Below, one piece after another: positions 4,368 through 27,080 of a stretch of 37,223 bases of DNA. The first letter of the stretch is position 1. Each line of letters opens with the position of its first letter. Origin of the DNA: an uncultured Pelagibacteraceae bacterium (GTDB lineage: Bacteria > Pseudomonadota > Alphaproteobacteria > Pelagibacterales > Pelagibacteraceae). Under the pieces are notes generated by a model that was not told the DNA's origin, searched no databases, and worked only from the letters and a program-made list of their open reading frames with translations. Location of the stretch: contig CABXVD010000007.1 of NCBI GenBank assembly GCA_902515625.1, positions 1-37,223 of the forward strand, in the 5' to 3' direction. The translations under genes and the position numbers were made by a program.

Positions 4368-4376
4368 ACATAAACA

Positions 4377-6027: not shown

Positions 6028-6050
6028 TTTGTATTCAGATTTTGATATTT

Positions 6051-6350
6051 TTATTCAATATTTAATATTTGCTCTAGCTTTGCCATCATTATGACTTTAA
6101 GAACTGATTTGCTGATTTCTTTAAGCACAACCTTTTTTCCTAACTCTACTGCTTTTTGGTGACTTTCAATTAAAACTGAAATTCCAGAAGAGTCCATGTA
6201 CTGCACATCTTTAAGATTTATATGAATTTCATTTGCAGACTCAATAAGCGGCATAATGGCCTCTTTTGCCTTATCTCCAACATCCATATCTATTTCGCCA
6301 TTAAGGTAGATTGTAGATATGTTGTTTTCTTCTGTTACGTTATAAGTCAT
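6051..6350 (-). CDS. STAS-domain anti-sigma-factor antagonist
   Basis: 99 aa with MDSSGISVLIESH motif typical of SpoIIAA/RsbV. Confidence 0.88.
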   Translation of the reverse strand: MTYNVTEENNISTIYLNGEIDMDVGDKAKEAIMPLIESANEIHINLKDVQYMDSSGISVLIESHQKAVELGKKVVLKEISKSVLKVIMMAKLEQILNIE

Positions 6351-6527
6351 GTATTAAATTGTGATATTATTAGCATTTTATTTTATTTTTAGAACTAAAT
6401 TCTTCAATTATTAGTTGTTTTTTTTACAAAAAATTAATACATTTTGTATTTACAAGTGAAATTTAAATACTTAAAATTTGAATTAAAGAGTTATAATTAT
6501 AAAAGTTATAATAAATAGGAAAAAATT

Positions 6528-7031
6528 ATGAAAAAAAATAAACAAAAAGGTTTTACATTAATTGAATTGCTAGTGGTTGTAGCAATTATAGGAATTTTAG
6601 CATCAGTAGGTGTTGTTGCATATAACGGATACACTAGTTCAGCACAAAAAAGTGCAGCTGACTCAAATCACAACTCAGTTGTTAAGTGGATACAAAATGA
6701 ATATCAAAAATGTTCTATTGGAGAAGATACTGCAATGAATGCAAACCTTGATTGTATAGATGATTCGAATGAGGCAGCAGATAGCACAGATGTAGCTAAG
6801 GCTACAATTGCATCTCAACAAGCTGATACTGCAAAGATGAACAATCCTTATACAAAAACAGCAGCAGTACAAAATGAAGGAACAACAGTACCCACTATTT
6901 GTTCTACTACTAATAGAGGTCAGATAGTAATAACAACAGATGGTGATACTAAAATTATAGTAACTACATGTAAAGCAGCTAAAGATGGGGATACAACAAA
7001 TCTTCTGTCAGATACAATTGCATTAAATTAA
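6528..7031 (+). CDS. pilA: Type IV pilin (major pilin candidate)
   Basis: Prepilin motif KGFTLIELLVVVAIIGILASVGVVAYNGY; cysteines in C-terminal half. Confidence 0.92.
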   Translation: MKKNKQKGFTLIELLVVVAIIGILASVGVVAYNGYTSSAQKSAADSNHNSVVKWIQNEYQKCSIGEDTAMNANLDCIDDSNEAADSTDVAKATIASQQADTAKMNNPYTKTAAVQNEGTTVPTICSTTNRGQIVITTDGDTKIIVTTCKAAKDGDTTNLLSDTIALN

Positions 7032-7044
7032 AAATTTAATTTAA

Positions 7045-7485
7045 TTGAGAAATAAAAAAAACTTAAGTGGTTTTACACTAACTGAGTTATTAGTTGTTGT
7101 AGCCATACTTGGTATACTTTCTGCGGTAGGAATAGTTAGTTACAATGGCTATGTTGGTTCTGCACAAAGAAAATCTGCTGAAAATTTAATGCAACAAATA
7201 GCATTAGCTCAATCGGAACATCTATCTGATAATGGTACCTATTATAGTGTATCAGAATCTAATTGTGAACCAACTACTGAAACACTAGCAGATATTTATC
7301 AAAATCTTTTAGGATCAACAACTGCTGCTAAAGCCACTGAAAAAGCAAAAGATAGTGCTTTTGCAATTTGTATATCCAAAGATGAGAGAGAAGGGAGCCA
7401 AACAGAATATCTAATAACTGCATCTAAAGGGGACCTTAAAATTTACATGAATTCTGTGGGTGAAATTGATAGCAATGAAGAATAA
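7045..7485 (+). CDS. Second type IV pilin-like protein (TTG start)
   Basis: SGFTLTELLVVVAILGILSAVGIVSYNGY prepilin motif; tandem with previous pilin. Confidence 0.9.
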   Translation: MRNKKNLSGFTLTELLVVVAILGILSAVGIVSYNGYVGSAQRKSAENLMQQIALAQSEHLSDNGTYYSVSESNCEPTTETLADIYQNLLGSTTAAKATEKAKDSAFAICISKDEREGSQTEYLITASKGDLKIYMNSVGEIDSNEE

Positions 7486-7503
7486 TTTATTAGCTGATGT
7501 AAA

Positions 7504-7767
7504 ATGAAAATAAAATTTGAATTATTAACTAATTTATCAAATAACAAGTTATCTCAAAGACAAAAAATATTTTTATCAGCAAGTATTGGATGGATAGTTT
7601 TTATTGGTTTTTTGACTTGGTTAAATGGAATTAATGATCTTGCATTAATAAAAACTTTTAGATGGGATGAATGGTTTTGGTTTGGAATTGTTCCCGCAAC
7701 AACTCCTTATATAATTTACTACATTTGGAGACCACAAAGTAACCAAGAAGACGATAAGCAAGAGTAA
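7504..7767 (+). CDS. Small membrane protein of unknown function
   Basis: 87 aa, two hydrophobic segments, 18 nt downstream of pilin gene. Confidence 0.6.
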   Translation: MKIKFELLTNLSNNKLSQRQKIFLSASIGWIVFIGFLTWLNGINDLALIKTFRWDEWFWFGIVPATTPYIIYYIWRPQSNQEDDKQE

Positions 7768-7782
7768 AAATTAATCACAAAC

Positions 7783-8079
7783 ATGAACAAATTTCTAAAA
7801 GTTCTAATCATTTTAATAATGTTTTCAGGTTGCACTCAAAATACAGCTCAACTTGTCCCAGCTTTGTCATTTGCAACTAGTGGGAGTATAAGTAAAGCTC
7901 TTTTATCAGGATCCATAAACAAGGGTATTAAACATCACACAGGCAAGAGTGTTAGCGAGCATATGGCCCAATCTTTGCAGCGAAATTTAGATTGTTCTGA
8001 TAATACTAGCAATGAGTTGTTAACAATCTTCTTCGTAAATTACTCAGATATAGACTGTTATTCACAAAGTATTAATTAA
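7783..8079 (+). CDS. Small putative lipoprotein
   Basis: MNKFLKVLIILIMFSGC lipobox-like signal; no recognised domain. Confidence 0.6.
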   Translation: MNKFLKVLIILIMFSGCTQNTAQLVPALSFATSGSISKALLSGSINKGIKHHTGKSVSEHMAQSLQRNLDCSDNTSNELLTIFFVNYSDIDCYSQSIN

Positions 8080-8137
8080 AAGCCATTAGAGTGCTTTATT
8101 GAGTGAAATTAAAATATTATTTGTTAGCTTGTTATAA

Positions 8138-9052
8138 ATGAATAACACATTTGAAAAATCTCAAAATTTAAAAGCTTACTTTATGTTGGTTTGTGCCACA
8201 TTGTTTTGGGCAGGTAATTTTAATATGGGAAAGTTTGCTTTCATAGAAAATATATCCCCATTTACCCTTGCATTTTTAAGATGGCTTCTAGTTTGGATAA
8301 TACTAATGCCTTTTACTTATAAAGAAATTTTAAGTTTAAAAAAAATAATAATTAAAAATTTTAAATTATTATTTTTGTTAGGACTTAGTAGCGTTTTTTT
8401 GTTTACAGCACTTACTTACAAAGCACTAAATTATACACAAGTAATAAATGCATCACTATTTAATACAGCTATACCAGCTACAATTATTCTGGTTTGTTTT
8501 TTACTTAAAATAGAAAAAACAAATATTTTTCAGTTATCTGGTCTGTTAATTTCAACCTTAGGAATTTTAGTAATCATTACCAAACTCGATTTAGATATAT
8601 TACTTTCGCTAGCTTTTAATACAGGAGATTTATTTATGATTGCAGCAATTATTTCCTGGGGCGTTTACTCTGCATTTTTAAAAAAAAGAAATTTTGAAAT
8701 TTCTCTTTTAGCACTTGTCCAAATTATTTGTACTTTTGGATTATTAATGCTTGCGCCTGCTTTTTTAATCGAAGTAAATCAAGGCAACTCAATAAATTTA
8801 AATTTAAACTTAATTTATATTTTACTGTATGTTGCAGTTTTTCCAAGCATTGGATCTTATTATTGTTGGGCTGGAGCAGTATCAATCATAGGGCCGAATA
8901 GATCAGGAATATTTTTATCATTAATCCCTTTATTTAGTACGATTTTTGCAATGATATTTTTTGATGAAAAATTTTTATTTTATCATTTAATTGGAACCGT
9001 TTTAATTATATTAGGTTTATTTTTATCAAACAAAAAAATAATAAATGTTTAA
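8138..9052 (+). CDS. DMT-superfamily EamA transporter
   Basis: About 10 TM segments, EamA-type sequence. Confidence 0.85.
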   Translation: MNNTFEKSQNLKAYFMLVCATLFWAGNFNMGKFAFIENISPFTLAFLRWLLVWIILMPFTYKEILSLKKIIIKNFKLLFLLGLSSVFLFTALTYKALNYTQVINASLFNTAIPATIILVCFLLKIEKTNIFQLSGLLISTLGILVIITKLDLDILLSLAFNTGDLFMIAAIISWGVYSAFLKKRNFEISLLALVQIICTFGLLMLAPAFLIEVNQGNSINLNLNLIYILLYVAVFPSIGSYYCWAGAVSIIGPNRSGIFLSLIPLFSTIFAMIFFDEKFLFYHLIGTVLIILGLFLSNKKIINV

Positions 9053-9995
9053 AGTTGCTATTTTAGATGATTATCAAAATGTTGCACAGCAGTTTGTAGA
9101 TTTAGAAAAACTATCTGGAAAATATGAATTTAAAGTTTTTAGTGAACCCTTTGTGGATGAGGCAGATGCTATTGAACAATTGTTAGATTTTGAGGCTTTG
9201 CTAATAATGAGAGAGAGAACACCAATTACTAAAAATTTAATTGATAATTTAAGTAGTTTAAAATTTGTTATCACCAGTGGATTAAGAAATAAGTCTATTG
9301 ATTTGGAAGCTGCAAAAAAAAGAAAAGTAATTGTTTGTGGAACAGATATAAACCAAAACCCAACTCCTGAATTAACTTGGGCACTTATTTTAGGCTTGGC
9401 CAGGAACTTTAAAGAAGAATTTGACAATATGTACCAAGGATATTGGCAAACAACTGTAGGTGTTGAATTAAAAGGTAAAATTCTTGGATTAATTGGTCTT
9501 GGTCGTGTTGGATCTCAAGTTGCTAAAATTGGAAAAGCTTTTGGCATGCAAGTTATGGCGTGGAGTGAAAATTTAAATCTTGATACTTGTAAGGAATTAG
9601 ATGTGCTTCCATGTAGTAAAGAAGACTTAATAAAAAATTCTGATTTTTTATCTATCCATGTTCAAGGTGGCGAAAGATACAAAGATTGTATTACTATAAA
9701 AGAGTTTGATAATATGAAAAAAACATCATTTATTATTAATACCTCCAGAGGGGAGATTATTAATGAAGATGATTTAATTATTGCACTATCAACAAATGTA
9801 ATTGCTGGCGCAGGAATTGATGTTTATGAAAAGGAACCTTTACCAGAAAACAACAAATTAAGATTTTTACCAAATGCGTTGCTAACACCCCACATAGGTT
9901 ATGTTACTGCAGAAAATTACAGTACATTTTATAGTCAAATGATAGAAGGTTTGGAGGCTTGTGTGAATGGGAAGCCTGTTCGAGTGTTAGAGTAA
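9045..9995 (+). CDS. D-2-hydroxyacid dehydrogenase family protein
   Basis: GKILGLIGLGRVGSQVAKIGKAFGM Rossmann motif, TSRGEIINEDDL, LLTPHIGY. Confidence 0.9.
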   Translation: MFKVAILDDYQNVAQQFVDLEKLSGKYEFKVFSEPFVDEADAIEQLLDFEALLIMRERTPITKNLIDNLSSLKFVITSGLRNKSIDLEAAKKRKVIVCGTDINQNPTPELTWALILGLARNFKEEFDNMYQGYWQTTVGVELKGKILGLIGLGRVGSQVAKIGKAFGMQVMAWSENLNLDTCKELDVLPCSKEDLIKNSDFLSIHVQGGERYKDCITIKEFDNMKKTSFIINTSRGEIINEDDLIIALSTNVIAGAGIDVYEKEPLPENNKLRFLPNALLTPHIGYVTAENYSTFYSQMIEGLEACVNGKPVRVLE

Positions 9996-9997
9996 TA

Positions 9998-10891
9998 ATG
10001 GAATTACCAGTTGTTAATCATGAAGATTATTTTGCTAAAATTGGCGATGATCATAAATTTCCAATCAATAAGTTTGGCGAATTAGCTAATTATTTGATTG
10101 AAAATAAAATAGTAAAAAAGTTTCACAAGCCTTATCCTTGTTCAGTAGAGACTTTAAATTGTGCACATTCTAAAGAATATATTTTTGATATTAAAAATAA
10201 AACTTTAAGTAAACAAGGAGTAAAGAAAATAGGATTTCCTTTAGTAGATAGTGTTGTACAAAGATCCCTTGTTGCAACTGGTGGAACAGTTCTTGCTTCA
10301 AAACTTGCTGTCAACTATGGGATTGCTTGTAATACTGCAGGAGGAAGCCATCATGCAAATTATAATAGTGGTGCTGGATACTGTGTTTTTAATGATGTTG
10401 CTGTTGCTGCTCATTACTTAATCAACAGAGGTTTAGCTAATAAAATTCTTATAGTAGACTTAGATGTACACCAAGGAAATGGTAACTCAGATATATTCAA
10501 AGAAAATAGAGATGTTTTTACATTTAGTATGCATTCAAAGACAAATTATCCAGCAAAAAAATCAATTAGTGATTTAGATGTTGAATTAGAAGATAATTTG
10601 GAAGATCAGAATTATATAAAAACATTGAAGTATTATTTAACAGAATTGAATAAAGAAAATTTTGATTATGTTTTTTATATAGCGGGGGTAGATATCCATT
10701 TCAATGACAGATTAGGAAAATTAAAAATTTCAGATAACGGAATAAGATTGAGGGATGAAACAGTTATTGAAAATTTTTTTTCTAAAAGAATTCCAATATG
10801 TGGCGTTTTAGGAGGAGGATATAATAAAGATTTTAATAAATTAGTTGAATTACACTCTATGTTACATCAATCTTGTGCTAAATATATTTAA
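9998..10891 (+). CDS. Histone deacetylase family protein (AcuC/class II HDAC-like)
   Basis: GGSHHANYNSGAGYCVFNDVAVAA, VDLDVHQGNG, GVLGGGY motifs; internal ATG at 9998 preferred over listed 9959 start. Confidence 0.9.
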   Translation: MELPVVNHEDYFAKIGDDHKFPINKFGELANYLIENKIVKKFHKPYPCSVETLNCAHSKEYIFDIKNKTLSKQGVKKIGFPLVDSVVQRSLVATGGTVLASKLAVNYGIACNTAGGSHHANYNSGAGYCVFNDVAVAAHYLINRGLANKILIVDLDVHQGNGNSDIFKENRDVFTFSMHSKTNYPAKKSISDLDVELEDNLEDQNYIKTLKYYLTELNKENFDYVFYIAGVDIHFNDRLGKLKISDNGIRLRDETVIENFFSKRIPICGVLGGGYNKDFNKLVELHSMLHQSCAKYI

Positions 10892-10893
10892 TT

Positions 10894-11265
10894 ATGGCAA
10901 AAAAAATTAATCAAAACTTAACCGCAGAACAAAAATTAATTTTATTTGAAGAAGGAACAGAACTTGCAGGAACCAGTGAATTAAATCATGAAAAAAGAGA
11001 AGGAAGTTTTCATTGTGCAAATTGTGGAATTAAACTTTTTGATTCTAAAACAAAATATGAGAGTGGATCAGGTTGGCCTTCATTTTATGAGTCTTTACCT
11101 GATGTATTTGAGACGAAAACAGATCATCACATTGGTTACGCTAGAACTGAATATCATTGTAAAAATTGTGGTGGGCATCACGGACACATCTTTGAGGATG
11201 GACCGCAACCTACAGGAAAAAGGTATTGCAATAACGGTGTTTGTTTAATTTTCAGACCAAAATAA
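10894..11265 (+). CDS. msrB: Peptide-methionine (R)-S-oxide reductase
   Basis: CANCG...SGSGWPSFY...CKNCGGHHGHIF...GKRYCNNGVCLIF. Confidence 0.93.
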   Translation: MAKKINQNLTAEQKLILFEEGTELAGTSELNHEKREGSFHCANCGIKLFDSKTKYESGSGWPSFYESLPDVFETKTDHHIGYARTEYHCKNCGGHHGHIFEDGPQPTGKRYCNNGVCLIFRPK

Positions 11266-11268
11266 TTA

Positions 11269-11294
11269 AAAATAACCTATATTGGGTTAATTTT
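11269..11294 (+). terminator. Weak hairpin plus T-run after msrB
   Basis: AAAATAACC-TATATTG-GGTTAATTTT followed by T-rich tract. Confidence 0.4.
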
Positions 11295-11334
11295 TTATTT
11301 TTAATTTAAATTTATTTTGTTAAAAATTGATCTG

Positions 11335-12186
11335 ATGAAAAAAATTTTATTTATATTTCTTACATTAATGTTTAGCTTTAATAGCCAGGCAGAGGATATA
11401 ACAAAAAAAATTGCAGAAACAGCAAGTGATTATATTTCAAATTTAATTGAAGGAAATGGAACAACAGAAGTTAGTATTCAATTAAGAGAAAACTTTAAGC
11501 CAGATTTTAGCATTCTAGGAGTAAGAGAATTAAATAAAGCCAGTAACCAAAATACATTTGTCCAGTTCTCTTTGTTTAACACTGAAAAATCGAATGAAGA
11601 AAGATATGTCGGAAATCTTGGTTTTGGTAAAAGATTTTTAAGTGACGATACCTTCATGCTAACAGGGTTTAATGCATTTTTGGATTATGATCATCATGGA
11701 AATACTAGAACAAGTATCGGTGGTGAGATTAAAAATGCTGTTATGGGTTTAACTTCAAACTATTATAAAAAAATTGATAATGGTGGTGTGGATGAAGAAG
11801 TTTTAGATGGTTATGACATTCAACTTTCTTCTCAAGTTCCATACTTACATTGGGCAGATATCTTTTATAACAGTTATAAATGGGACGGTGTTGATAGAGA
11901 TGATATTGAAGGTTCAAAAATTGGTGCAGACTTACTCTTAACACCTCATATAGCTGTTGAAGCCGCTTATGATGATAAAGATAAAAAAGGTTTAAAAGAT
12001 GAATGGTATGCAAAAATAGTTTTTGTTCATCCTCCAAGAGAAGGTGCCACGGCTCAAGATGGAGTGAGTAGCGATATTTGGAAAAAAGAAAAAGATATGT
12101 CAGGTGAAATGCTTGCTAAAGTGAAAAGAAATAATAAAATCGTAGTAGAGTTTAAAGGTTCAGCAACAATTTCAAGAACGGATTAA
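11335..12186 (+). CDS. Inverse autotransporter beta-barrel domain protein (intimin/invasin-type barrel, no passenger)
   Basis: Signal peptide (MKKILFIFLTLMFSFNSQA); VGNLGFGKRFL...FMLTGFNAFLDYDHHGNTRTSIGGEIKN and terminal KVKRNNKIVVEFK resemble intimin/invasin barrels; ATG at 11335 gives better signal peptide than TTG at 11317. Confidence 0.78.
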   Translation: MKKILFIFLTLMFSFNSQAEDITKKIAETASDYISNLIEGNGTTEVSIQLRENFKPDFSILGVRELNKASNQNTFVQFSLFNTEKSNEERYVGNLGFGKRFLSDDTFMLTGFNAFLDYDHHGNTRTSIGGEIKNAVMGLTSNYYKKIDNGGVDEEVLDGYDIQLSSQVPYLHWADIFYNSYKWDGVDRDDIEGSKIGADLLLTPHIAVEAAYDDKDKKGLKDEWYAKIVFVHPPREGATAQDGVSSDIWKKEKDMSGEMLAKVKRNNKIVVEFKGSATISRTD

Positions 12187-12188
12187 TT

Positions 12189-13052
12189 ATGAAAAAATTA
12201 AAATTTTTATGTATTGTTTTATTTTCATTATTAATAAACAGTTTTTCTTTAAATGCAGCTGAAGTAAAAGGTGCGGCTGATATTTATAAAGTAAAAATGC
12301 ATAAACTTGAACTTTGTACAGGACACACACCTGGAGATATGGATGATGTAGCAACATCAACAACTCAATGTCAAGATGCTGTTACAATAGGAACTAGTAC
12401 TGCGGGCGTAGAAGTAGATATTGCCTCAGTTTCAGAGGGAGCTGTTGCAGGAAATTTTGGTGATACGATGCTTCTTCCATTAGGAGTAACTTATACTCAT
12501 GTCAGAGTTACACTTAACAGAAATATGAAATTAAGAACTAAAAAAGGTATAAATACTGGAGGTGGTGGCGATGTTGATAATTGTAAAACAAAAGCTACTA
12601 CAGATGCTATGTATGCTACTAATGAAGCAACTGACAAATATACTCATAAGCCTGTAGTTCAAGAACATACTACTGGTACTGCTACTGAGGATAACTCTGA
12701 GGAGATGAGTCTTTACATTGTTAATGGACGACAATTTGGAGATAGTGGAGGTGAAATTAGTTTATGTCAGGATGAGGATTGTGGTTCAGTATCAGCTATC
12801 AATTGGAATTATGCGGAAAACGCATCTAGATTAAATTCCGCAAAGGCGATGCAAACAATGAGAAGTACGGTTACAACTGATCAATTAGCTATGATTTATG
12901 CTTTGGAGACCCCTTATACTGTGTCTTTAATTCCACCAAAAATTGATATGTCTTTTTCAACCAGTCAAGCAATAATGGCAGAAAATGTAGTTTCAGATAC
13001 ACTTTGTGCATTTGCTATTTCAGAACCAATTGTAACAATAACTATGGAATAA
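12189..13052 (+). CDS. Secreted protein of unknown function, six cysteines in mature region
   Basis: Signal peptide MKKLKFLCIVLFSLLINSFSLNAA; begins 2 nt after the barrel gene. Confidence 0.7.
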   Translation: MKKLKFLCIVLFSLLINSFSLNAAEVKGAADIYKVKMHKLELCTGHTPGDMDDVATSTTQCQDAVTIGTSTAGVEVDIASVSEGAVAGNFGDTMLLPLGVTYTHVRVTLNRNMKLRTKKGINTGGGGDVDNCKTKATTDAMYATNEATDKYTHKPVVQEHTTGTATEDNSEEMSLYIVNGRQFGDSGGEISLCQDEDCGSVSAINWNYAENASRLNSAKAMQTMRSTVTTDQLAMIYALETPYTVSLIPPKIDMSFSTSQAIMAENVVSDTLCAFAISEPIVTITME

Positions 13053-14429: not shown

Positions 14430-15668
14430 ATGAAAATAAATAAAATAATCATAAGTTTTATTTCTGCAGCTGTAATTTTATTATCAACATCAGTCGTATC
14501 TTTTGCGAAAGTTGTTGGAGATAAAATTGTTTTAGGTGCAGCAATTTCATTAACTGGTAAATACTCTTCTAATGGTGTTCATACTCAAAACGGTTACAAT
14601 ATGGCCGTAGATAGAATTAACAGCATGGGTGGTGTTAAAGTTGGTGGTAAAACTTATAAGTTTGACATTATTTATTATGATGATGAGTCAAACCCAAAAA
14701 GAGCAGCTCAACTTGCTGAAAGATTAATTTCACAAGATGGTGTTGAGTTTATGCTTGGTCCATACAGTTCAGGATTAACTAAAGCGATAGCTCCAGTTAC
14801 AGAAAAGTACGGTGTTCCAATGGTGGAAGCAAATGGTGCATCTAGATCTTTGTTTACAAAAGGTTACAAATATCTATTTGCTGTTTTAGCTCCTGCTAAT
14901 TTATATCTTGATGTTGCTATTGATTTAGCAGTTGAAAAGAATAATGGAAAACCAGTAACTGTTGCAATGGCATTTGAACAAGATGCATTTTCTCAAGATG
15001 TAAGACTAGGAGTTTTAGAAGCAATTAAAAGAACAGGCTCTAAACAAGTAATTGATGATAAATTACCAAAAGAGCTAAATGACATGGCTGCTACTTTAGT
15101 AAAAGTCAAACAAATGAAACCAGATGTTTTAGTTGTTTCAGGTCACACTAAAGGTGCTCTAACTGCTATTAGACAAATATCTGAGATGAAAGTAGATGTT
15201 CCAATGTTAGCTATGACACACTGTGATGCAGCGAAACTATCAAAGCAACATGGTAAGAACTCACAATATGCTTTATGTGCTTCTCAGTGGCACAAAACAC
15301 TAACTTATAAAGATGACTTCTTTAAAGATGGTATGACTTATGACGCAGACTTTACTAAAGAGTTTGGTTATGCGCCTCCATATCAAGCAGCAGAATCATC
15401 AGCTGCTCTATTGGTATTTAAAGATGCATTTGAAAGAGCAAATTCTTTTGATCAAAAGAAAGTAAGGGATGCTCTTGCAGCTACTAATATGCAAACTTTT
15501 TATGGAAACATAAAATTTGCATCAGGTGGTCAGAATGTTGATAAGCCAATGGTACTTTTCCAAGTTATGTGTGACGATGGTGGAAAATGTGAAAACAAAG
15601 TTGTTGCTCCAACTAAATGGGCTTCAGCTAAATTGATTCACCCAATTCCTTCTTGGTCTAAAAGATAA
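14430..15668 (+). CDS. Branched-chain amino acid/amide-type ABC transporter substrate-binding protein
   Basis: Signal peptide; VLGAAISLTGKYSSNGVHTQNGYNMAVDRIN...GGKTY periplasmic-binding (Peripla_BP_6) fold. Confidence 0.92.
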   Translation: MKINKIIISFISAAVILLSTSVVSFAKVVGDKIVLGAAISLTGKYSSNGVHTQNGYNMAVDRINSMGGVKVGGKTYKFDIIYYDDESNPKRAAQLAERLISQDGVEFMLGPYSSGLTKAIAPVTEKYGVPMVEANGASRSLFTKGYKYLFAVLAPANLYLDVAIDLAVEKNNGKPVTVAMAFEQDAFSQDVRLGVLEAIKRTGSKQVIDDKLPKELNDMAATLVKVKQMKPDVLVVSGHTKGALTAIRQISEMKVDVPMLAMTHCDAAKLSKQHGKNSQYALCASQWHKTLTYKDDFFKDGMTYDADFTKEFGYAPPYQAAESSAALLVFKDAFERANSFDQKKVRDALAATNMQTFYGNIKFASGGQNVDKPMVLFQVMCDDGGKCENKVVAPTKWASAKLIHPIPSWSKR

Positions 15669-15730: not shown

Positions 15731-16624
15731 ATGGATTTCATGGTCTTCCAATATCCAATGATTTCTGTTCAAGCATGTTTGGACGGAATTTTACTTGGAA
15801 TTTTATTTGCATTGATTGCATATGGTATGGCACTTCAATGGGGAGTAATGAATATAATTAATATTGCTCAAGGAGATCTTGTTATTTTAGGAGGATACAT
15901 TGCTTATTTTATGTATCTTTACGGTATTCACCCTGCATGGGGAGTTATTGTGTCACCAATCATAATGTTTTTTGTAGGTATAGCAATTTACAAACTTGTA
16001 ATTAATAAAGTGGTTGATAGAGATTTGTTCATATCTATCTTAGCTACATTTGGAATAAGTATTCTTTTCATGCAATTAATGAACTTTGCATTTGGAGCTG
16101 ATGTTGTTCTTGCAAACTCAGATTATGGAACAACTATGTTATTTAATAATAACGTTGTGCTGCCAAATTCGAAAATATTTTCAGCATTTATAAGCATTGT
16201 ATTTGCAATTTGTTTAGTAATTTACATGAAAAAATCTAAGCTTGGTCGTGCAATCAGAGCAACAGCCCAAAATGCAAGAGCAGCAAAGATTTTAGGTGTT
16301 GATACAGAAAAAGTTTATGCAGCAACTTTTGGAATTAATGCAGCTCTTTGTGGTGTTGCTGGTGCTTTAATTTCAATTACTTTTACAATTCACCCTTATA
16401 TGGGTCTTCCATATACAATTAGATCTTTTATGATTGTTATTATCGCTGGATTAGGAAACCTACCTGGTGTTGCAATGTCAGGAATGGGCTTAGGTGTATT
16501 TGAAGAATTTGCAGATTACATACTTGGCACTGAATTTAGAATTGGATCAGTATTTTTATTGTTAGTTTTAATACTTGTTTATAGAAGATTTAAACTTTCA
16601 AGAAAAAGAGAATATTTAAAATGA
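15731..16624 (+). CDS. Liv-type ABC transporter permease (LivH)
   Basis: BPD_transp_2-type TM protein; GVMNIINIAQGDLVILGGYIAY. Confidence 0.9.
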   Translation: MDFMVFQYPMISVQACLDGILLGILFALIAYGMALQWGVMNIINIAQGDLVILGGYIAYFMYLYGIHPAWGVIVSPIIMFFVGIAIYKLVINKVVDRDLFISILATFGISILFMQLMNFAFGADVVLANSDYGTTMLFNNNVVLPNSKIFSAFISIVFAICLVIYMKKSKLGRAIRATAQNARAAKILGVDTEKVYAATFGINAALCGVAGALISITFTIHPYMGLPYTIRSFMIVIIAGLGNLPGVAMSGMGLGVFEEFADYILGTEFRIGSVFLLLVLILVYRRFKLSRKREYLK

Positions 16625-17727
16625 TAAGAAAAATTATACTTTTAATTTTATTTTCAGTGTTTGTGTCATCGACAGTTCTTGCTTGTGAAGGTCGTGAAAT
16701 AAAGAAAAGTGGATTTTTATACTATAAGGACGGCAAAGGTAAATTTATTGAAGGTTATGACATTGAAAATCCTCAAGATAAAATAATTATGGTTTTTAAT
16801 CGTGGATCATGGCATGTAAAAAAAGGTTCTCGTTTTTGTATTCAAAAAAACAATAGTATGCAAAGTGTATTAGCCCAACTTTCAGGAACAATTATAGATG
16901 GTAAAGAATTAGTTGTTTGGATTAATATGGAATTATGGAAAGCTGGTCTTTATACACATGAAAACAAATGTGTAAAAGGGGAGCATATGTATAAGGGTAA
17001 AAAATTATATTTTACTCCACCATATTGGAAATGTATGTGGGGACCACCAACTTATATAAAAAAAGTAAAAACCTCTAAAGATGATATTTTACAAGTTCCA
17101 GAATATGTTAGTAATTTTCCCTTAAAAAATAGAGCAGCAATAAATAGTGCAATTGCGGATATATTTGTTGAAAAAGGAACACCAAGAAACCAACTTTTTA
17201 TTTCAGGCCATTCATGTGGGGGTATTGGAAGTTTGAGAATGGAGGCTGTGTTTCCAGAAGTTTATAATGCTGCAATTTCTCTTAATCCGAATTGTTGGGA
17301 TAATATTGATAATGATTTAATGAGAGAGTTTCAGTTAGATGAAATAAGAGGTGCAGAAAAATTAGACGCTTTAACTTTTCATGGAGAAATGGATGGAGCA
17401 AGTAGTTATTTAGGAATTTCAAGTTATATGAGGTGGATTGGAGATAAGCCTGGTGCTGAATGGGTTGAACTTCCAGTCCACAACAGTCCTAATGGAAAAG
17501 AATTTATAATTGATGGAGTAGAATGCAAAATAAAATATAGAATGAATAGTGGTTGGAAAATCAAACATAATTGGGATTACGGCCATAAATTGAAAGCTTG
17601 GACTATAGTAGATCCTAAAGAAAAAGCTGAAATGAAAAAAAAAGCTGCTGGACACAATATTGCATCTGATATGTGTTTTACACCTTATCTCGAGGACATC
17701 AAAAAATTTATAGCAAAAAAATTATAA
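16621..17727 (+). CDS. Secreted alpha/beta hydrolase (PHB depolymerase/esterase-like) embedded in transporter operon
   Basis: Signal peptide; GHSCGGIGSLRMEAVFPEVYNAAISLNP nucleophile elbow; ATGA overlap with upstream permease. Confidence 0.7.
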   Translation: MIRKIILLILFSVFVSSTVLACEGREIKKSGFLYYKDGKGKFIEGYDIENPQDKIIMVFNRGSWHVKKGSRFCIQKNNSMQSVLAQLSGTIIDGKELVVWINMELWKAGLYTHENKCVKGEHMYKGKKLYFTPPYWKCMWGPPTYIKKVKTSKDDILQVPEYVSNFPLKNRAAINSAIADIFVEKGTPRNQLFISGHSCGGIGSLRMEAVFPEVYNAAISLNPNCWDNIDNDLMREFQLDEIRGAEKLDALTFHGEMDGASSYLGISSYMRWIGDKPGAEWVELPVHNSPNGKEFIIDGVECKIKYRMNSGWKIKHNWDYGHKLKAWTIVDPKEKAEMKKKAAGHNIASDMCFTPYLEDIKKFIAKKL

Positions 17728-17731
17728 TATT

Positions 17732-18784
17732 ATGAATAAAAAAAATTTAATCTTATATATTGGAATATTAATTTTTGGTGTAGCTGCTCCATTTATATTT
17801 CCAGCTTTTAAAGTACAGTTATCTATTCTTTGTGTATTAATTGTTCTTGCTACAACTTGGAATATTCAAGGTGGTGAAATGGGGTATAACTCATTTGGAA
17901 ATATACTCTTTTATGGCCTCGGTATGTATTTATGTGCCTCTGTCCAGGTTGGTATGTTTTTCCCACTAGCTGAATGGACTGAAAGTGGTGGTGAAAAAAC
18001 ATTTGTACATACTCCTGCACAATTTTTTCAAGGGATGGCTGTTGGGCTAATAGTTGCTGCAGTGGTACCAACAATTGTAGCAGGTTTAATTGGATATTCT
18101 ATTTTAGGACTTAGAGGGCATTATTTTGCCATTTGCACATTAGGTTTGGGTGTTGCAGCAGGTGAGATTTCTGGAGGAATTGAAATCATTGGAGCTGGAC
18201 AAGGTTTCACAACTCCACCTTTTCCTGATGTAGGAAGTTTAGAATCACGAGGTGAATTTTTTTATTTTCTAAGCTTTTTTGTTTTAATACTTACTTTCAT
18301 AGCTGTCAGAGGAATTTACACAACTAGATTTAAGTTAATATTAAATGCAATAAGGGATAATGAAGATAAGGCTGAGGCTATGGGAATTCAAACGATGAAG
18401 TACAAAATAGTTGGTTGGATGATATCAGCTTTCTTTTGTGGTCTTGCTGGAGGAATCATGGGAGGCTTAGTTGGATATATTGACTCAACAGATGTTGCTT
18501 TTGATGGAAGAGAGATGGGAGTTTTTATGGTTTTAATGGCAATCTTAGGAGGAAAAGGAACTCTTTGGGGACCAATTATTGGTGCAACAGTTTTTCATAT
18601 TTTTAAAGAGGGTTTTTGGACTTTCTTCTTAGGTTGGCAATATGTTGCACTTGGAGTGTTAATCGTTGTGATAGTTATTTATTTCCCAGAGGGAATAATG
18701 GGTTGGTTAAGAGAAAAATATCCTGAAAGATTTGGTGAAGTTGTAGATGAAAAAGATCGTAAGGCTCAGGTGGAACTTAAATGA
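17732..18784 (+). CDS. Liv-type ABC transporter permease (LivM)
   Basis: BPD_transp_2-type; RGHYFAICTLGLGVAAGEI, NAIRDNEDKAEAMGI. Confidence 0.9.
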   Translation: MNKKNLILYIGILIFGVAAPFIFPAFKVQLSILCVLIVLATTWNIQGGEMGYNSFGNILFYGLGMYLCASVQVGMFFPLAEWTESGGEKTFVHTPAQFFQGMAVGLIVAAVVPTIVAGLIGYSILGLRGHYFAICTLGLGVAAGEISGGIEIIGAGQGFTTPPFPDVGSLESRGEFFYFLSFFVLILTFIAVRGIYTTRFKLILNAIRDNEDKAEAMGIQTMKYKIVGWMISAFFCGLAGGIMGGLVGYIDSTDVAFDGREMGVFMVLMAILGGKGTLWGPIIGATVFHIFKEGFWTFFLGWQYVALGVLIVVIVIYFPEGIMGWLREKYPERFGEVVDEKDRKAQVELK

Positions 18785-20306: not shown

Positions 20307-21010
20307 TGATTAATAGGCAGTTTTTCTTTAAGGGATATAAATCAATTTTCGCACCCGATAGTCCTGCAATAGCTTTAGGATGCTGTTTCATTGCAATAGG
20401 AGCTTTACTTAAAAATTTAGGTTTTAACATTCAAGAAAGTATTTTTTCTACTATGTTAACCTATGCTTTGCCAGGTTCATTAGTAATGGCGGAGTCATTA
20501 TTAGTAGGAGCATCATTACTAAATATTTTTTTAGCAGTTTGGTTTGTTAATGCGAGACTTTATCCAATGGCAGTTTCTTTGTTTCCACTAATGATGCATA
20601 AAAATCAACCTAAATGGAAATACTACTTTTCATGTCATTTCATTGCTGTGTCTGCTTGGTTGATAATGAAAAGTAACTATAAGACAGTTCCTAAAAAACA
20701 AAGAATTGATTTTTGGATTGGTATTGGTAGCGCAACTTGGAGCGTAGCAGTTTTAGGTACTTTTATAGGTTTTTATTTTTCAGAATATTTAAATAAAGAT
20801 ATGATGATGGGATTAGCTATTTTAAATCCAGTTTATTTTTTATGCATGATGGTGGGAGCCTCAAAAACAATACAAATTACATTGTCAGTTATACTTGGGA
20901 CAATATTAGGACCAATTTTTTATTTTCTATCACCAGAATGGTCTATTTTACTTGGAGGCATAATTGGTGGAACAATTGCATACTTCATAGGAGAACTAAA
21001 TGTCAGTTAG
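20306..21010 (+). CDS. AzlC family branched-chain amino acid exporter subunit
   Basis: AzlC-like sequence and TM pattern; followed by overlapping AzlD-like gene. Confidence 0.8.
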   Translation: MINRQFFFKGYKSIFAPDSPAIALGCCFIAIGALLKNLGFNIQESIFSTMLTYALPGSLVMAESLLVGASLLNIFLAVWFVNARLYPMAVSLFPLMMHKNQPKWKYYFSCHFIAVSAWLIMKSNYKTVPKKQRIDFWIGIGSATWSVAVLGTFIGFYFSEYLNKDMMMGLAILNPVYFLCMMVGASKTIQITLSVILGTILGPIFYFLSPEWSILLGGIIGGTIAYFIGELNVS

Positions 21011-21323
21011 TATTTTTTATGCAATTTTAGTTACTTCATTAGCAACCTTTATTTCAAGATTGCTTGGAGCTATAAGTTCACAAGGTATTAAGGAGACTTC
21101 AAAATTATTTAAATGGTTTAATTGTTTAGCCTATGCAACTTTAGCAGCACTAATTGCAAGAACAATTATTTTTCCTGCTGGTGTTCTTATTGACGCAAGT
21201 TATTTAAGTAGAATAATTGTTGTCGTATTGTCATTAGTTGTATTCTTTGTGTCTAAACAAAATTATGTTTATCCCACAGTTTTTTCTGCCCTATGTATGG
21301 CAGCCATTAACAATTATTTTTAA
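21000..21323 (+). CDS. AzlD family small membrane subunit
   Basis: 107 aa, four TM segments, LATFISRLLGA; overlaps azlC. Confidence 0.78.
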   Translation: MSVSIFYAILVTSLATFISRLLGAISSQGIKETSKLFKWFNCLAYATLAALIARTIIFPAGVLIDASYLSRIIVVVLSLVVFFVSKQNYVYPTVFSALCMAAINNYF

Positions 21324-21363
21324 TTCAAATTGATTTATTATTTAAGTTAATTTAAAATTTAGT

Positions 21364-22275
21364 ATGGAAAAAATTGAGGGCTTAGAAGTTCAAAATCATA
21401 AAGACTCTAGTAGAATACTAAATATTCAATTAGATGATGATATTGTAAAAAAATTAATTTTTCCTTTTAACAAATTTGATCTTACTGCGCTAGAACTTAA
21501 ACCGTTTACTAGATTTACAATTGCGAAAAGTCTTGATGATTTAACTAACAATAAACTAAGTAAGTTAATCAATTCGATACTCCGAGATAGATCAACCGGT
21601 TGCTTTATTATTGGTCCTAAAAATATTTCAACAAAAACTAATGATAAATTTTTAGTAAAATTGTCAACTGCTATAGCTCACCTTATTGGAATTCCAAATC
21701 ATGATTCAATGGCAGGAAAATACTATGCTAGATTTCATGTAAAGCATGAAGATGCTAGTGACTCTTATTTGAGAAAAGCTTACAGAAATATGGATTTGCA
21801 CACAGATGGAACATATGTAAAAGAAGTTACAGATTGGTTAGTTATGACTAAACTAGAGGAGCAAAATGTACAAGGTGGTGAAACTGCAATGTTACATTTA
21901 GATGATTGGGAGCATTGTGATGATTTATCCAATGATCCTGTTGGTCAACAAGATTTTATTTGGGGGTCTCCTAAGAGTAAAAATATTGATTATAAGGTAG
22001 AGCATCCAGTTTTTTCTTTTGATAAAGAAGGAAGACCTAAAATTTCATACATAGATCAGTTTCCAGAACCTAAAAACATGGAACAGGGAAATTTTTTACA
22101 AAAATTATCTGACGCCTTAGAGGAAAGTAAAAATAAAATAATTACTAAATTACCAGTCGGTCATTCTGTTATAGCTAATAATTATTTCTGGCTTCATGGA
22201 CGAAAACCCTTCAAAGAAAATAAAGAATTAAGCAGGGAATTGTTGAGAATTAGAGGCTCTTTTTTTGTTAATTAA
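21364..22275 (+). CDS. glaH: CsiD/GlaH-like glutarate 2-hydroxylase (Fe(II)/2-oxoglutarate dioxygenase)
   Basis: Collinear with E. coli CsiD/GlaH motifs: SDSYLRKAYRNMDLHTDGTYVKEVTD, EQNVQGGETAMLHLDDWEH, NNYFWLHGR, ELLRIRGSF. Confidence 0.88.
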   Translation: MEKIEGLEVQNHKDSSRILNIQLDDDIVKKLIFPFNKFDLTALELKPFTRFTIAKSLDDLTNNKLSKLINSILRDRSTGCFIIGPKNISTKTNDKFLVKLSTAIAHLIGIPNHDSMAGKYYARFHVKHEDASDSYLRKAYRNMDLHTDGTYVKEVTDWLVMTKLEEQNVQGGETAMLHLDDWEHCDDLSNDPVGQQDFIWGSPKSKNIDYKVEHPVFSFDKEGRPKISYIDQFPEPKNMEQGNFLQKLSDALEESKNKIITKLPVGHSVIANNYFWLHGRKPFKENKELSRELLRIRGSFFVN

Positions 22276-23082: not shown

Positions 23083-23871
23083 ATGTCAGAAAATATTTTA
23101 GAAATTAAAAATTTATCAAAATATTTTGGTGGATTAGCTGCTGTTTCTGATTGCTCTTTAAAAGTTTCAAGAGGTACTATTACAGGAATTATTGGACCTA
23201 ATGGATCTGGTAAGACAACATTATTTAATTTGATTGCAGGAAATTTAAAGTCCTCAGGTGGTGAAGTAATTTTTGATAATGAAAATATAACAGATGTCCC
23301 TTCATTTGAATTATTTTCTAAAGGATTATTAAGAACTTTTCAAATAGCACATGAATTTTCTAATCTATCAGTATTAGAAAATTTAATGATGGTACCTGGT
23401 AACCAGTCTGGAGAAAAGCTTATGACAGCATTATTAAAACCAAGTTTAGTTTCTGAAGAGGAAGAATTGGTAAAAGAAAAAGCTAAAGAGGTTGTTGATT
23501 TTCTTAATCTTGGTCATTTATCGAATGAGTTAGCTGGTAATTTATCTGGAGGACAGAAAAAACTTTTAGAGCTTGGAAGAACAATGATGGTGGATGCTAA
23601 ATTAGTGCTTCTTGATGAGGTAGGTGCAGGAGTTAACCGAACACTTTTAAAAGATCTGGGAAGTGCAATAGAAAAATTGAATAAAGAAAAAGGATATACT
23701 TTTTGTATGATTGAACATGATATGGATTTTATTGGAAGATTATGTGACCCTGTAATTGTAATGGCTGAAGGTTCAGTTTTATTCGAAGGATCTGTGGAAG
23801 ATGCAAAAAAAGATGAAAAAGTTATAGAGAGTTATCTTGGAAGAGGATCTAAAATTAAGGATCATAACTAA
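23083..23871 (+). CDS. Liv-type ABC transporter ATPase (LivG, second system)
   Basis: GPNGSGKTTLFN, LSGGQKKLLELGR, LVLLDEVGAGVN. Confidence 0.91.
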   Translation: MSENILEIKNLSKYFGGLAAVSDCSLKVSRGTITGIIGPNGSGKTTLFNLIAGNLKSSGGEVIFDNENITDVPSFELFSKGLLRTFQIAHEFSNLSVLENLMMVPGNQSGEKLMTALLKPSLVSEEEELVKEKAKEVVDFLNLGHLSNELAGNLSGGQKKLLELGRTMMVDAKLVLLDEVGAGVNRTLLKDLGSAIEKLNKEKGYTFCMIEHDMDFIGRLCDPVIVMAEGSVLFEGSVEDAKKDEKVIESYLGRGSKIKDHN

Positions 23872-24578
23872 TGGCCTATTTTGAGGGAATAGAAATGACA
23901 GGAGGTTATGGAAACGGTCCTGATATTATAAGTTCTTGCACGGTAAATGTTAACAGAGGAGAAATAGTATCAATTCTCGGTCCTAATGGAGCAGGTAAGT
24001 CCACTGCCATGAAAGCTATGTTAGGCTTATTAAATTTAAAATCTGGATCAATTAAAATTAACGGTAAGGATATTTCAAATCTATCTCCACAAGATAGAGT
24101 CAAACAGGGTATTTCTTTTGTTCCTCAAAACAAAAATGTTTTTGCCGGTATGACAGTTGAAGAGAACTTAGAAATGGGAGCATTTCTATTAAATGAAGAA
24201 ATAGAAAATATAATAGAAGAAATTTATGAATTATTCCCAATCTTAAAAGAAAAAAGAAACCAATTAGTGGGTGAACTATCAGGCGGTCAAAGACAACAAG
24301 TTGCACTTGGTAGAGCTCTGATGATTAAACCAACAGTTTTGATGCTTGATGAGCCTACTGCTGGTGTTTCTCCAATTGTAATGGATGAATTATTTGATCA
24401 TATAGTAAAAGTCAAAAGAAACGATGTAGCAATTCTAATGGTTGAACAAAATGCCAAACAAGCACTAAGCATTTCTGATAGAGGTTATGTTTTGGTAACT
24501 GGAGAAAATCGTTATTCAGGTACAGGTAATGAGTTATTAAACGATCCAAGAGTAAGAAGCTCTTTTTTGGGAGGTTGA
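23871..24578 (+). CDS. Liv-type ABC transporter ATPase (LivF, second system)
   Basis: GPNGAGKSTAMKA, LSGGQRQQVALGRALM, LMLDEPTAGVSP. Confidence 0.92.
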   Translation: MAYFEGIEMTGGYGNGPDIISSCTVNVNRGEIVSILGPNGAGKSTAMKAMLGLLNLKSGSIKINGKDISNLSPQDRVKQGISFVPQNKNVFAGMTVEENLEMGAFLLNEEIENIIEEIYELFPILKEKRNQLVGELSGGQRQQVALGRALMIKPTVLMLDEPTAGVSPIVMDELFDHIVKVKRNDVAILMVEQNAKQALSISDRGYVLVTGENRYSGTGNELLNDPRVRSSFLGG

Positions 24579-24579
24579 T

Positions 24580-25590
24580 GTGGATATATTAAATGCATTA
24601 ATTCTTTTATTAAATTATATTTTTATACCTGCACTTACATATGGTTCTCAATTAGCTCTTGGTGCAATTTTTGTTACTTTAATTTATGGAATTTTAAGAT
24701 TTGCTAATTTTGCAACAGGAGACATGATGTCTTTTGGTACCATGGTAACAATATTGTTCACCTGGTATTTTCAGTCTCTAGGAATATCTTTAGGAGTGCT
24801 GCCAACAGCATTAATAGCTATTCCTTTTGGAATTTTATTTATGATAATTTATATGCTTTCGATAGATAAATTTGTATTTAAATATTACAGAATTAATAAA
24901 AGCCCACCTGTGCAATTAGCTATGGTTAGTATTGGAGTAATGTTTGTTACTCAAGCAGTGGTTAGAATTATTATTGGACCTTCAGACCAAAGATTTTTTG
25001 ATGGAGAAAAATTTATAATTAAAGCTAGAGAATTTAAAGAAATGACAGGACTTAATGAAGGTCTTGCATTGAAATCAACACAAGTAATTACTGTATTAGT
25101 TACAATTGTATTAGTGTCTTTGTTGTTCTGGTTTTTAAATAAAACCAAAACTGGTAAAAGCATGAAAGCTTATTCAGATAATGAAGACTTAGCTTTACTT
25201 TCAGGAATAGATCCTAAAAAAATTGTAATGATAACCTGGATAATTGCAGGAATTTTAGCAACTATAGGTGGAGCCTTGTATGGATTAGATAAAAGTTTCA
25301 AACCTTTTACTTATTTTAACAATATGCTTCCAATATTTGCTGCTGCTATAGTTGGAGGAATTGGAAATCCATTTGGTGCATTTTTAGGAGGATATGTGAT
25401 TGCTTTTTCTGAAATATTTCTAACTTATGCATATAAGAAATTTTTTATGTATATATTGCCTGAAAGTATGGAACCTGAGAGTTTAGTTCAGTTATTATCT
25501 ACAGATTATAAATTTGCAGTCTCATTTTCGATATTAGTAATTGTATTACTCTATAGACCATCTGGGATATTTAAAGGGAAGGTACTGTGA
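24580..25590 (+). CDS. Liv-type ABC transporter permease (LivH, second system; GTG start)
   Basis: BPD_transp_2-type; LRFANFATGDMMSFGTMVT. Confidence 0.88.
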   Translation: MDILNALILLLNYIFIPALTYGSQLALGAIFVTLIYGILRFANFATGDMMSFGTMVTILFTWYFQSLGISLGVLPTALIAIPFGILFMIIYMLSIDKFVFKYYRINKSPPVQLAMVSIGVMFVTQAVVRIIIGPSDQRFFDGEKFIIKAREFKEMTGLNEGLALKSTQVITVLVTIVLVSLLFWFLNKTKTGKSMKAYSDNEDLALLSGIDPKKIVMITWIIAGILATIGGALYGLDKSFKPFTYFNNMLPIFAAAIVGGIGNPFGAFLGGYVIAFSEIFLTYAYKKFFMYILPESMEPESLVQLLSTDYKFAVSFSILVIVLLYRPSGIFKGKVL

Positions 25591-26957
25591 GAAAAAATTT
25601 AAATGTTATTGCCGCTTATAGCATCATGATGGTTTTGATTATACTTGTTGGTGTCTTTCAATCTTGGAATATCGCACTATCAATTTTCAATATGTGTTTA
25701 ATCTCAGCTGTAATGACAATGGGTGCAAACATTCAGTGGGGTTACGCAGGATTAATTAATTTTGGAATTATGGGATATACCGCTCTTGGTGGATTGGCTG
25801 CAGTTTTAATTTCTGTTGATCCAGTCCAAGAGGCTTGGAGTGCAGGGGGTTTTGATATCTTGATGTGCCTATGGCTTATTATAGCACTGGTATTAATTAT
25901 TCGCTTTATCTTAAAAAATTTTCAAAAGTCAAAAGTTAGAACTTATGCTATTGCAGTTCTTATAATATCAGGAATTTTATTAATAAGGTTTACGGCAGAA
26001 CCTGGTATTGAAGCAATTGAAGACGTCAATCCAGCTAAAACAGGTTTTCTTGGTGGGTTTGGATTACCAATTATTTTTTCTTGGATTGTTGGTGCTTTTT
26101 TTGCAGGAGGTTTGGCGTTTATAGTCGGAAAAGTAGCCTTAGGCTTGAGAGCAGACTATTTAGCTATCGCTACTCTTTTAATATCAGAAATTGTCATAGC
26201 AATTATAAAACATGAAGACTGGTTAACTAGAGGTGTTAAAAATGTAATTGGACTTAAAAGACCAGCCCCTTACGAGGTAGATCTTCAAACAACGGATTGG
26301 TTTATAAATTTGGTTGAAAAATTTAATTCTGGAAAATTAGAATTAATTTCTAATTTATCTGATCGACAAGCTGTATTAAACCAACTTGTAATTGAAGGCT
26401 CGTCTGTATTTGTAAAACTTTGTTATTCAGGGTTATTTTTGACAGTAGTAATTATTTTATTAATCTTAACTCAAAAAGCTCTGTACTCTCCATGGGGTAG
26501 AATGATGAGAGCCATAAGAGATAATGAGGAAGCAGCTAATGCTATGGGAAAAAATGTTGTCAAACAGCATTTATTGATTTTTATTTTAGGTTCAGCAATT
26601 GTTGGAATTGCAGGAGCAATGTTAGTTACACAAGATGGATTGTTTACACCAGGAAGCTATAGACCTATGAGATATACTTTTTTAATTTGGGTTATGGTTA
26701 TTGTTGGGGGAAGTGGAAATAATTTTGGTGCTATATTGGGTGGTTTTGCAGTTTGGTTCTTATGGATAGAGGCTGCTCCAATTGCATTATTCTTAATAAA
26801 TTTTTTTACTGCAGGAATGTCAGAAACTCATGCTCTAAAACTTCACTTAATAGAGAGTGTACCTTACTTTAGATTTTTAATGATGGGCTTAGGTTTGTTG
26901 CTGATAATGAGGTATAGACCAAAGGGTATACTTCCTGAAAAAATAGAAATAAAATAA
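25587..26957 (+). CDS. Liv-type ABC transporter permease (LivM, second system; 456 aa, GTG start)
   Basis: GLRADYLAIATLLISEI, RAIRDNEEAANAMGKN; central insertions relative to the first LivM here. Confidence 0.88.
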   Translation: MRKNLNVIAAYSIMMVLIILVGVFQSWNIALSIFNMCLISAVMTMGANIQWGYAGLINFGIMGYTALGGLAAVLISVDPVQEAWSAGGFDILMCLWLIIALVLIIRFILKNFQKSKVRTYAIAVLIISGILLIRFTAEPGIEAIEDVNPAKTGFLGGFGLPIIFSWIVGAFFAGGLAFIVGKVALGLRADYLAIATLLISEIVIAIIKHEDWLTRGVKNVIGLKRPAPYEVDLQTTDWFINLVEKFNSGKLELISNLSDRQAVLNQLVIEGSSVFVKLCYSGLFLTVVIILLILTQKALYSPWGRMMRAIRDNEEAANAMGKNVVKQHLLIFILGSAIVGIAGAMLVTQDGLFTPGSYRPMRYTFLIWVMVIVGGSGNNFGAILGGFAVWFLWIEAAPIALFLINFFTAGMSETHALKLHLIESVPYFRFLMMGLGLLLIMRYRPKGILPEKIEIK

Positions 26958-26963
26958 GTTATT

Positions 26964-27032
26964 ATGAAATATATTATATTAGGTGCTGCAATTGCTTGGG
27001 CCATGTACATGGCAGACAAGTATATGTTTTAA
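26964..27032 (+). CDS. Candidate 22-aa hydrophobic microprotein
   Basis: ATG at 26964: MKYIILGAAIAWAMYMADKYMF*; starts 6 nt after livM stop and ends just before the terminator. Confidence 0.4.
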   Translation: MKYIILGAAIAWAMYMADKYMF

Positions 27033-27033
27033 A

Positions 27034-27067
27034 AAAAACCCCAATAACTCTCGCTACTGGGGTTTTT
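27034..27067. terminator. Bidirectional intrinsic terminator between convergent genes
   Basis: AAAAACCCCA ... TGGGGTTTTT hairpin with A/T tracts on both sides. Confidence 0.85.
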
Positions 27068-27080
27068 CTATAGGTAAAAA

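Follow-up and report, generated by a model that had tools for sequence, protein, structure and literature searches.

Introduction

The SAR11 bacteria have streamlined genomes in which individual genes come and go, and here we examine one such gene in a 37,223-nt stretch of DNA (the window) from an uncultured SAR11 bacterium of the family Pelagibacteraceae (contig CABXVD010000007.1 of assembly GCA_902515625.1; genome G000, 66% complete). The gene encodes a putative secreted serine hydrolase and is embedded between livH and livM of a branched-chain amino acid transporter (Liv) operon. Polymorphic single-gene indels have been described in SAR11 core regions of syntenic genomes under purifying selection, with rearrangements less frequent inside operons (1.94 per boundary) than between them (3.21) and no conserved rearrangement with transferred genes reported (Wilhelm et al. 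2007, PMC2217521). Turnover of non-homologous genes at hotspots flanked by the same core genes, in many cases with no mobile element present, has been linked to homologous recombination, and the arrival of new genes inside operons was described as rare (Oliveira et al. 2017, PMC5635113). Moreover, transfer of both core and flexible genes has been documented in Pelagibacter (PMC12416821).

The locus studied here resembles each of these systems in part. Like the SAR11 core-region indels, it involves single genes that are variably present in otherwise syntenic genomes under purifying selection, but here one operon-internal junction is hypervariable, accommodates ten cargo families, and carries a visible recombination scar. 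It differs from the integrase-free hotspots in that each slot lies within an operon and takes single genes between frames that overlap. Integron gene cassettes offer a further parallel, being single genes that are exchanged at one fixed position and are presumably served by an upstream promoter, and two cargos at our locus can be stacked in either order (compare loci L010 and L004), whereas the slot has no integrase and its junctions look like the work of homologous recombination or of recombination at microhomologies. Finally, the flanking genes form the livJ-H-M-G-F set of the Liv/HAAT branched-chain amino acid ABC transporter operon (livJHMGF) followed by azlCD, but the hydrolase is not a component of that operon and is missing from most orthologous ones. 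The open-access literature searched contained no account of slots inside operons that draw on a common pool of cargo, which does not prove that none exists.

Results

The livH-livM junction is a variable slot. The operon in the window has the gene order lysE, livJ, livH, hydrolase, livM, livG, livF, azlC, azlD, csiD, and a proC-type gene. The hydrolase gene (positions 16621 to 17727, forward strand) begins with ATG, encodes 368 amino acids, and shares the 4 nt at positions 16621 to 16624 (AAATGATAAG) with the end of livH (15731 to 16624, forward strand; BPD_transp_2, E = 4.4e-36). A gap of 4 nt separates its end from the ATG of livM at position 17732 (17732 to 18784, forward strand; BPD_transp_2, E = 3.8e-28). 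The ATGA overlap and the 4-nt spacing described in an original prediction from the sequence were thus read correctly.

To define what occupies the junction in relatives, 297 genomes of the SAR11 order were sampled, of which 152 contained livH, 153 contained livM, and 146 contained the two paired on one contig. In 79 of the 146 operons livM followed livH directly, with a gap of -7 to +13 nt, and the remaining 67 contained inserts of 165 to 1887 nt. The window hydrolase was present in five of the 146. For a census of all junctions, four further carriers (L004, L005, L006, and L010), a non-random sample because they were found by searching for the hydrolase, were added to the 146 operons (window included) to give 150, and an insert was counted at 150 nt or more. 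By this measure the livH-livM junction was filled in 71 of 150 operons, and no insert was found at livJ-livH, livM-livG, or livG-livF (0 of 150 each), at livF-azlC (0 of 146), or at azlC-azlD (0 of 144). The only other variable junction was azlD-csiD, with an insert in 39 of 133 operons. Non-homologous contents thus stand between the same core genes in related genomes, as in gene-transfer hotspots. The synteny check that accompanied the original prediction, for which absence of the gene from the operon in all relatives would have been damaging, gave a mixed answer: the hydrolase does occur with Liv genes in some relatives, but its distribution is patchy and it has been exchanged.

Ten unrelated families occupied the livH-livM junction. 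Besides the family of the window hydrolase (368 amino acids, a 309- plus 320-amino-acid tandem in L062, and 311 amino acids in L072), they comprised a secreted family of 197 to 206 amino acids, a secreted protein of 287 to 289 amino acids with a HELAH motif, a second secreted alpha/beta hydrolase of 375 to 376 amino acids with GHSRGG recognized by eye, a secreted 128-amino-acid protein, a Cys-rich cytosolic protein of 136 amino acids, a small multidrug-resistance protein, an 83-amino-acid membrane protein, a pair of 144 and 204 amino acids resembling one frameshifted glycosidase-like gene, and a small protein of 60 to 62 amino acids that was the commonest content (41 operons by insert length). 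All names except that of the multidrug-resistance protein reflect motifs recognized by eye, and Pfam and NCBIfam, where run on the others, returned no matches. Thirty-three of the 36 cargo genes compared began with a 4-nt overlap with livH. A crude signal-peptide test scored six of the ten families as secreted, against 78 of 633 baseline open reading frames (ORFs; 12%). The 60- to 62-amino-acid cargo is conserved, looks cytosolic, and has no signal peptide (for example, L095, L096, L098 to L101, and L115; oriented positions 3691 to 3879). The 144- and 204-amino-acid frames overlap at L092 (genome G191; oriented positions 3691 to 4699) and may reflect either decay of the cargo gene or an error in sequencing.

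The hydrolase gene has moved between lineages. Orthologues 91 to 99% identical to the window hydrolase occurred in eight other SAR11 records, and the ratio of nonsynonymous to synonymous substitution rates (dN/dS) was 0.06 to 0.18, indicating purifying selection; we conclude from both observations that the ORF is a real gene. In a class-wide sample, matches outside the window genome were all distant and were limited to 11 of 288 other genomes (best E = 9.8e-16). A search of viral contigs found no relatives of the hydrolase and thus no evidence for carriage by phage.

When slot content was mapped onto a transporter tree (livJ, livH, livM, and livG), at least 36 changes were required, compared to 56 to 69 when contents were shuffled. 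The nine hydrolase carriers needed nine changes, as a random scatter would (7 to 9 in shuffles, with a mean of 8.8), and the 60-amino-acid cargo was more clade bound, with 10 changes for 41 carriers (33 to 41 in shuffles). In pairwise comparison, the window hydrolase was 98.5% and 97.8% identical to those of L004 and L011, respectively, whereas livH was 84% and 83% identical and livM was about 82% identical, and the step in identity fell at the hydrolase start codon. Synonymous divergence (dS) between the window and L004 reached 1.0 in livH but 0.064 in the hydrolase gene. Such a difference in dS, together with the sharp identity step, is what recent transfer into a hotspot leaves behind. The reverse case was also seen, as L010 and L007 diverged less at third codon positions in livH than in the hydrolase gene. 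We conclude that the hydrolase gene has been transferred horizontally. Genes of the hydrolase family entered the Liv operon more than once, as the 368-amino-acid type, the tandem in L062, the 311-amino-acid type in L072, and copies at azlD-csiD in L071 and L178.

Two loci retain a recombination scar. Downstream of the hydrolase gene, both L004 and L011 have TATT, then the initial 23 nt of a livM gene (ATGAATAAAAATAATTTAATTTT), then another livH 3' end, and finally another cargo gene, of 198 or 206 amino acids. The second livH end in L004 is a perfect 58-nt copy of the first. The joint lies inside TTTAATTTT, a 9-bp microhomology common there to the livM start and the livH end. Joining by one-sided homology plus microhomology accounts for the scar, and a circularized cassette as intermediate would yield the same product. 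L004 and L011 differ in backbone and in second cargo yet share the joint, which argues that the scar product itself was probably passed on between genomes by recombination. No integrase was found among the genes from lysE to the proC-type gene that were read in the window and its relatives, nor in the slot, and a search for flanking repeats between positions 16400 and 18000 returned weak repeats of 15 to 18 nt, none of them convincing. An origin as a transposon or an integron was rejected on these grounds, although no search was aimed at attC sites.

The same families occupy other operon-internal junctions. At azlD-csiD, the hydrolase-family genes in L071 and L178 were 79 to 81% identical to the livH-livM copy of L072, and a 376-amino-acid hydrolase at azlD-csiD in L072 was 91% identical to that of L094. 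Between uvrB and uvrC, most empty SDR-folB junctions overlap by 4 to 7 nt, and filled ones contain members of the hydrolase family or of the 375-amino-acid type. The window genome itself has a second hydrolase-family member there (L234). In the methionine-salvage operon, most empty mtnP-mtnA junctions overlap by 7 nt, and filled ones contain hydrolase-family members, a DLH-type hydrolase, and others. These junctions, with hydrolase-family and other cargo, were read at L225 to L254 (SDR-folB) and L255 to L284 (mtnP-mtnA and mtnA-mtnB), and the mtnP-mtnA slot also held proteins of other kinds of 263, 268, 286, and 304 amino acids. In addition, a 357-amino-acid hydrolase relative, a metalloprotease-like protein, and a 194-amino-acid protein are encoded close together outside the Liv operon at L046 (positions 7799 to 12803; genome G030) and L044 (positions 5501 to 9707; genome G244). 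The metalloprotease-like protein is 34 to 40% identical to the 289-amino-acid livH-livM cargo, and the 194-amino-acid protein is 65% identical to the 198-amino-acid cargo; the group may be a functional set that supplies cargo.

The cargo of the window is very likely a secreted serine hydrolase. The N terminus (MIRKIILLILFSVFVSSTVLAC) was predicted by eye and by a crude script to be a Sec-type signal peptide of residues 1 to 21 (16621 to 16683, forward strand; STVLA before and CEG after the cleavage site), in agreement with the original prediction, and C22 could instead mark lipoprotein processing. In an alignment of 25 homologues 25 to 59% identical to the window protein, S198 and C199 of the putative nucleophile elbow GHSCGG (residues 196 to 201; 17206 to 17223, with S198 at 17212 to 17214) were invariant, as were G196 and G200, which gives the G-x-S-x-G pattern of alpha/beta hydrolases. 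Among the homologues listed, 13 had GLSCGG or GISCGG and one had GQSCGG. The candidate triad acid D258 (17392 to 17394, within FHGEMDGAS) was conserved in at least 90% of the homologues, and the candidate base H345 (17653 to 17655) was invariant; both residues are encoded on the forward strand. The order of nucleophile, acid, and base is that expected of the alpha/beta-hydrolase superfamily, and residue order and conservation support the triad that had been proposed, as the ATGA overlap and triad conservation support a secreted serine hydrolase translationally coupled to livH. Cysteines C199, C225, C302, and C352 were also invariant in the family.

Assignment to a known family was less direct. 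The window protein matched no Pfam family above its threshold. A profile of the 25 homologues matched alpha/beta hydrolases over the elbow region only (4h0c, E = 1.1e-5), 16 family members matched Abhydrolase_2 (best E = 7.5e-8), and the profile searches together indicated generic alpha/beta hydrolases (Abhydrolase_2 and Hydrolase_4). The closest described group is that of Abhydrolase_2, with acyl-protein thioesterases and carboxylesterases, to which the best profile matches fall around the nucleophile elbow; the window hydrolase differs in its predicted secretion, its conserved cysteines, and a long insert before the elbow, and the elbow region alone aligns. Membership in the extracellular short-chain polyhydroxyalkanoate depolymerases (NF050058) was rejected, as the weak similarity at the elbow over 49 residues scored 16.9 bits against a cutoff of 150. 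The distant likeness to polyhydroxybutyrate depolymerases and esterases that had been suggested thus gives way, for the depolymerase part, to a generic alpha/beta-hydrolase match. We infer a periplasmic or exported member of a SAR11-centered alpha/beta-hydrolase family that probably works in the periplasm by cleaving an ester or amide bond.

Discussion

Taken as a whole, the observations are likely explained if the hydrolase gene is exchangeable cargo of a slot inside an operon, having spread by recombination with no integrase and being expressed through translational coupling. That the gene is exchanged cargo in a variable slot is in itself highly probable, and its function is quite probably not specific to the Liv transporter. 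The livH-livM junction of a core SAR11 operon would accept single genes exactly between two frames, and cargo that overlaps the livH stop codon would be transcribed from the operon promoter and translated by coupling, with no promoter of its own. Across SAR11 lineages, cargo enters, leaves, and is replaced through recombination with incoming DNA, perhaps acquired by DNA uptake, for which the conserved flanks (the 3' end of livH and the 5' end of livM) and, in at least one case, a short microhomology would serve as handles. Several slots draw on one pool of mostly secreted enzymes. Some observations weigh against this explanation. The genes of the transporter tree recombine too, and the exchanges are relative to those genes; the repeated entry of hydrolase-family genes could hint at a functional affinity with the operon; and the slot holds a non-random sample of genes, given the six families that look secreted. 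An AlphaFold2 model built from nine near-identical orthologues reached a predicted local distance difference test score (pLDDT) of only 33, too low to be usable.

The original prediction had taken translational coupling to suggest that the hydrolase acts with the transporter, perhaps by cleaving a periplasmic ester or amide to release the imported substrate. On this view the substrate would be an amino acid or a related compound, and the joint task would account for the location of the gene in the operon. The secretion signal, the triad, and the ATGA coupling to livH are consistent with such a partnership, as are the repeated arrival of the family in the Liv operon and the secreted, enzyme-like character of several other cargos, but we consider it improbable. 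Most relatives have the same transporter without the hydrolase, unrelated cargo sits at the same junction, and the family is similarly placed in the methionine-salvage and folB-uvrC operons. Moreover, livJ (14430 to 15668, forward strand; Peripla_BP_6, E = 2.7e-48), which encodes the substrate-binding protein of the same operon, varies independently of slot content in a nearest-neighbor test: the nearest livJ neighbors of carriers are almost all non-carriers, and the closest relative of the window livJ (97.7% identical in nucleotides) sits in an operon with no insert. The step from coupling to joint function fails its best test, since operons with the hydrolase and operons lacking it can have almost the same binding protein, and the family occurs likewise in unrelated operons. 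The enzyme may still aid nutrition more generally. A Liv component would be constantly present and co-inherited with the binding protein, and the hydrolase is neither. A looser link to uptake, in which highly expressed uptake operons house periplasmic hydrolases that feed many transporters and the slot selects secreted nutrient-acquisition enzymes, is unlikely, overlaps with the cargo explanation, and would refine it. The excess of secreted families over baseline in the same crude test speaks for it, as does the co-occurrence of relatives of three cargos at L046, but secreted hydrolases are found equally in the folB-uvrC and methionine-salvage operons, and the commonest cargo is the cytosolic-looking 60-amino-acid protein.

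Patchy distribution and the one apparently frameshifted cargo in L092 would also be expected if incoming genes landed harmlessly between frames as neutral passengers and were later lost. The dN/dS values and the conservation of catalytic residues in homologues of as little as 25% identity make this very improbable. That chimeric single-cell or metagenome assemblies produced the variable junctions is scarcely credible: the named carrier records are indeed assemblies of these kinds, but many independent assemblies share these cargos and their lengths and preserve both the frame and the 4-nt overlap, one-contig genomes show both an insert of the 60-amino-acid size (G020) and an empty junction (G005, G013, and G026), and the two scarred genomes are unlike in backbone and second cargo.

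The slots could tentatively be extended to a SAR11 network of operon-internal sites (livH-livM, azlD-csiD, SDR-folB, mtnP-mtnA, and probably more) among which a common pool of mostly secreted enzymes circulates as in integrons, with short core-gene flanks in place of an integrase, although we would not yet favor so broad a scheme. If it were true, a streamlined genome would express and diversify surface and periplasmic enzymes from core promoters. The livH-livM junction, filled in about half of the operons when other core junctions never are, offers a clean natural system in which to study the arrival of single genes in core operons, their expression there, and their loss, and to learn what is exchanged among SAR11 cells. 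A further lesson is caution in inferring function from operon neighborhood in such genomes, as a textbook translationally coupled partner here appears to be interchangeable cargo.

Other genes of the window

The second variable slot of the operon, at the end of azlD (21000 to 21364, forward strand), is empty in the window. The csiD product that follows was identified as the glutarate dioxygenase GlaH (459.8 bits against a cutoff of 333). Its gene (21364 to 22275) stands after the Liv-AzlCD genes and before the proC-type gene, a position that may hint at lysine, glutarate, or other C5 compounds as transporter ligands. In L100 (genome G267; oriented positions 5619 to 11322), the operon is interrupted near the end of livG; livF to csiD are absent, and unrelated genes on the opposite strand come next.

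Upstream in the window, positions 11317 to 13052 contain two fast-diverging ORFs of 289 and 287 amino acids with signal-like starts, which are often 30 to 60% identical among close relatives. A 289-amino-acid protein with a similar start occurs at azlD-csiD in L172 and L175, and the ORF pair may be mobile cargo too. Immediately after the first Liv set, positions 23083 to 28271 hold another of the same type (livG, livF, livH, and livM, with a binding protein on the opposite strand).
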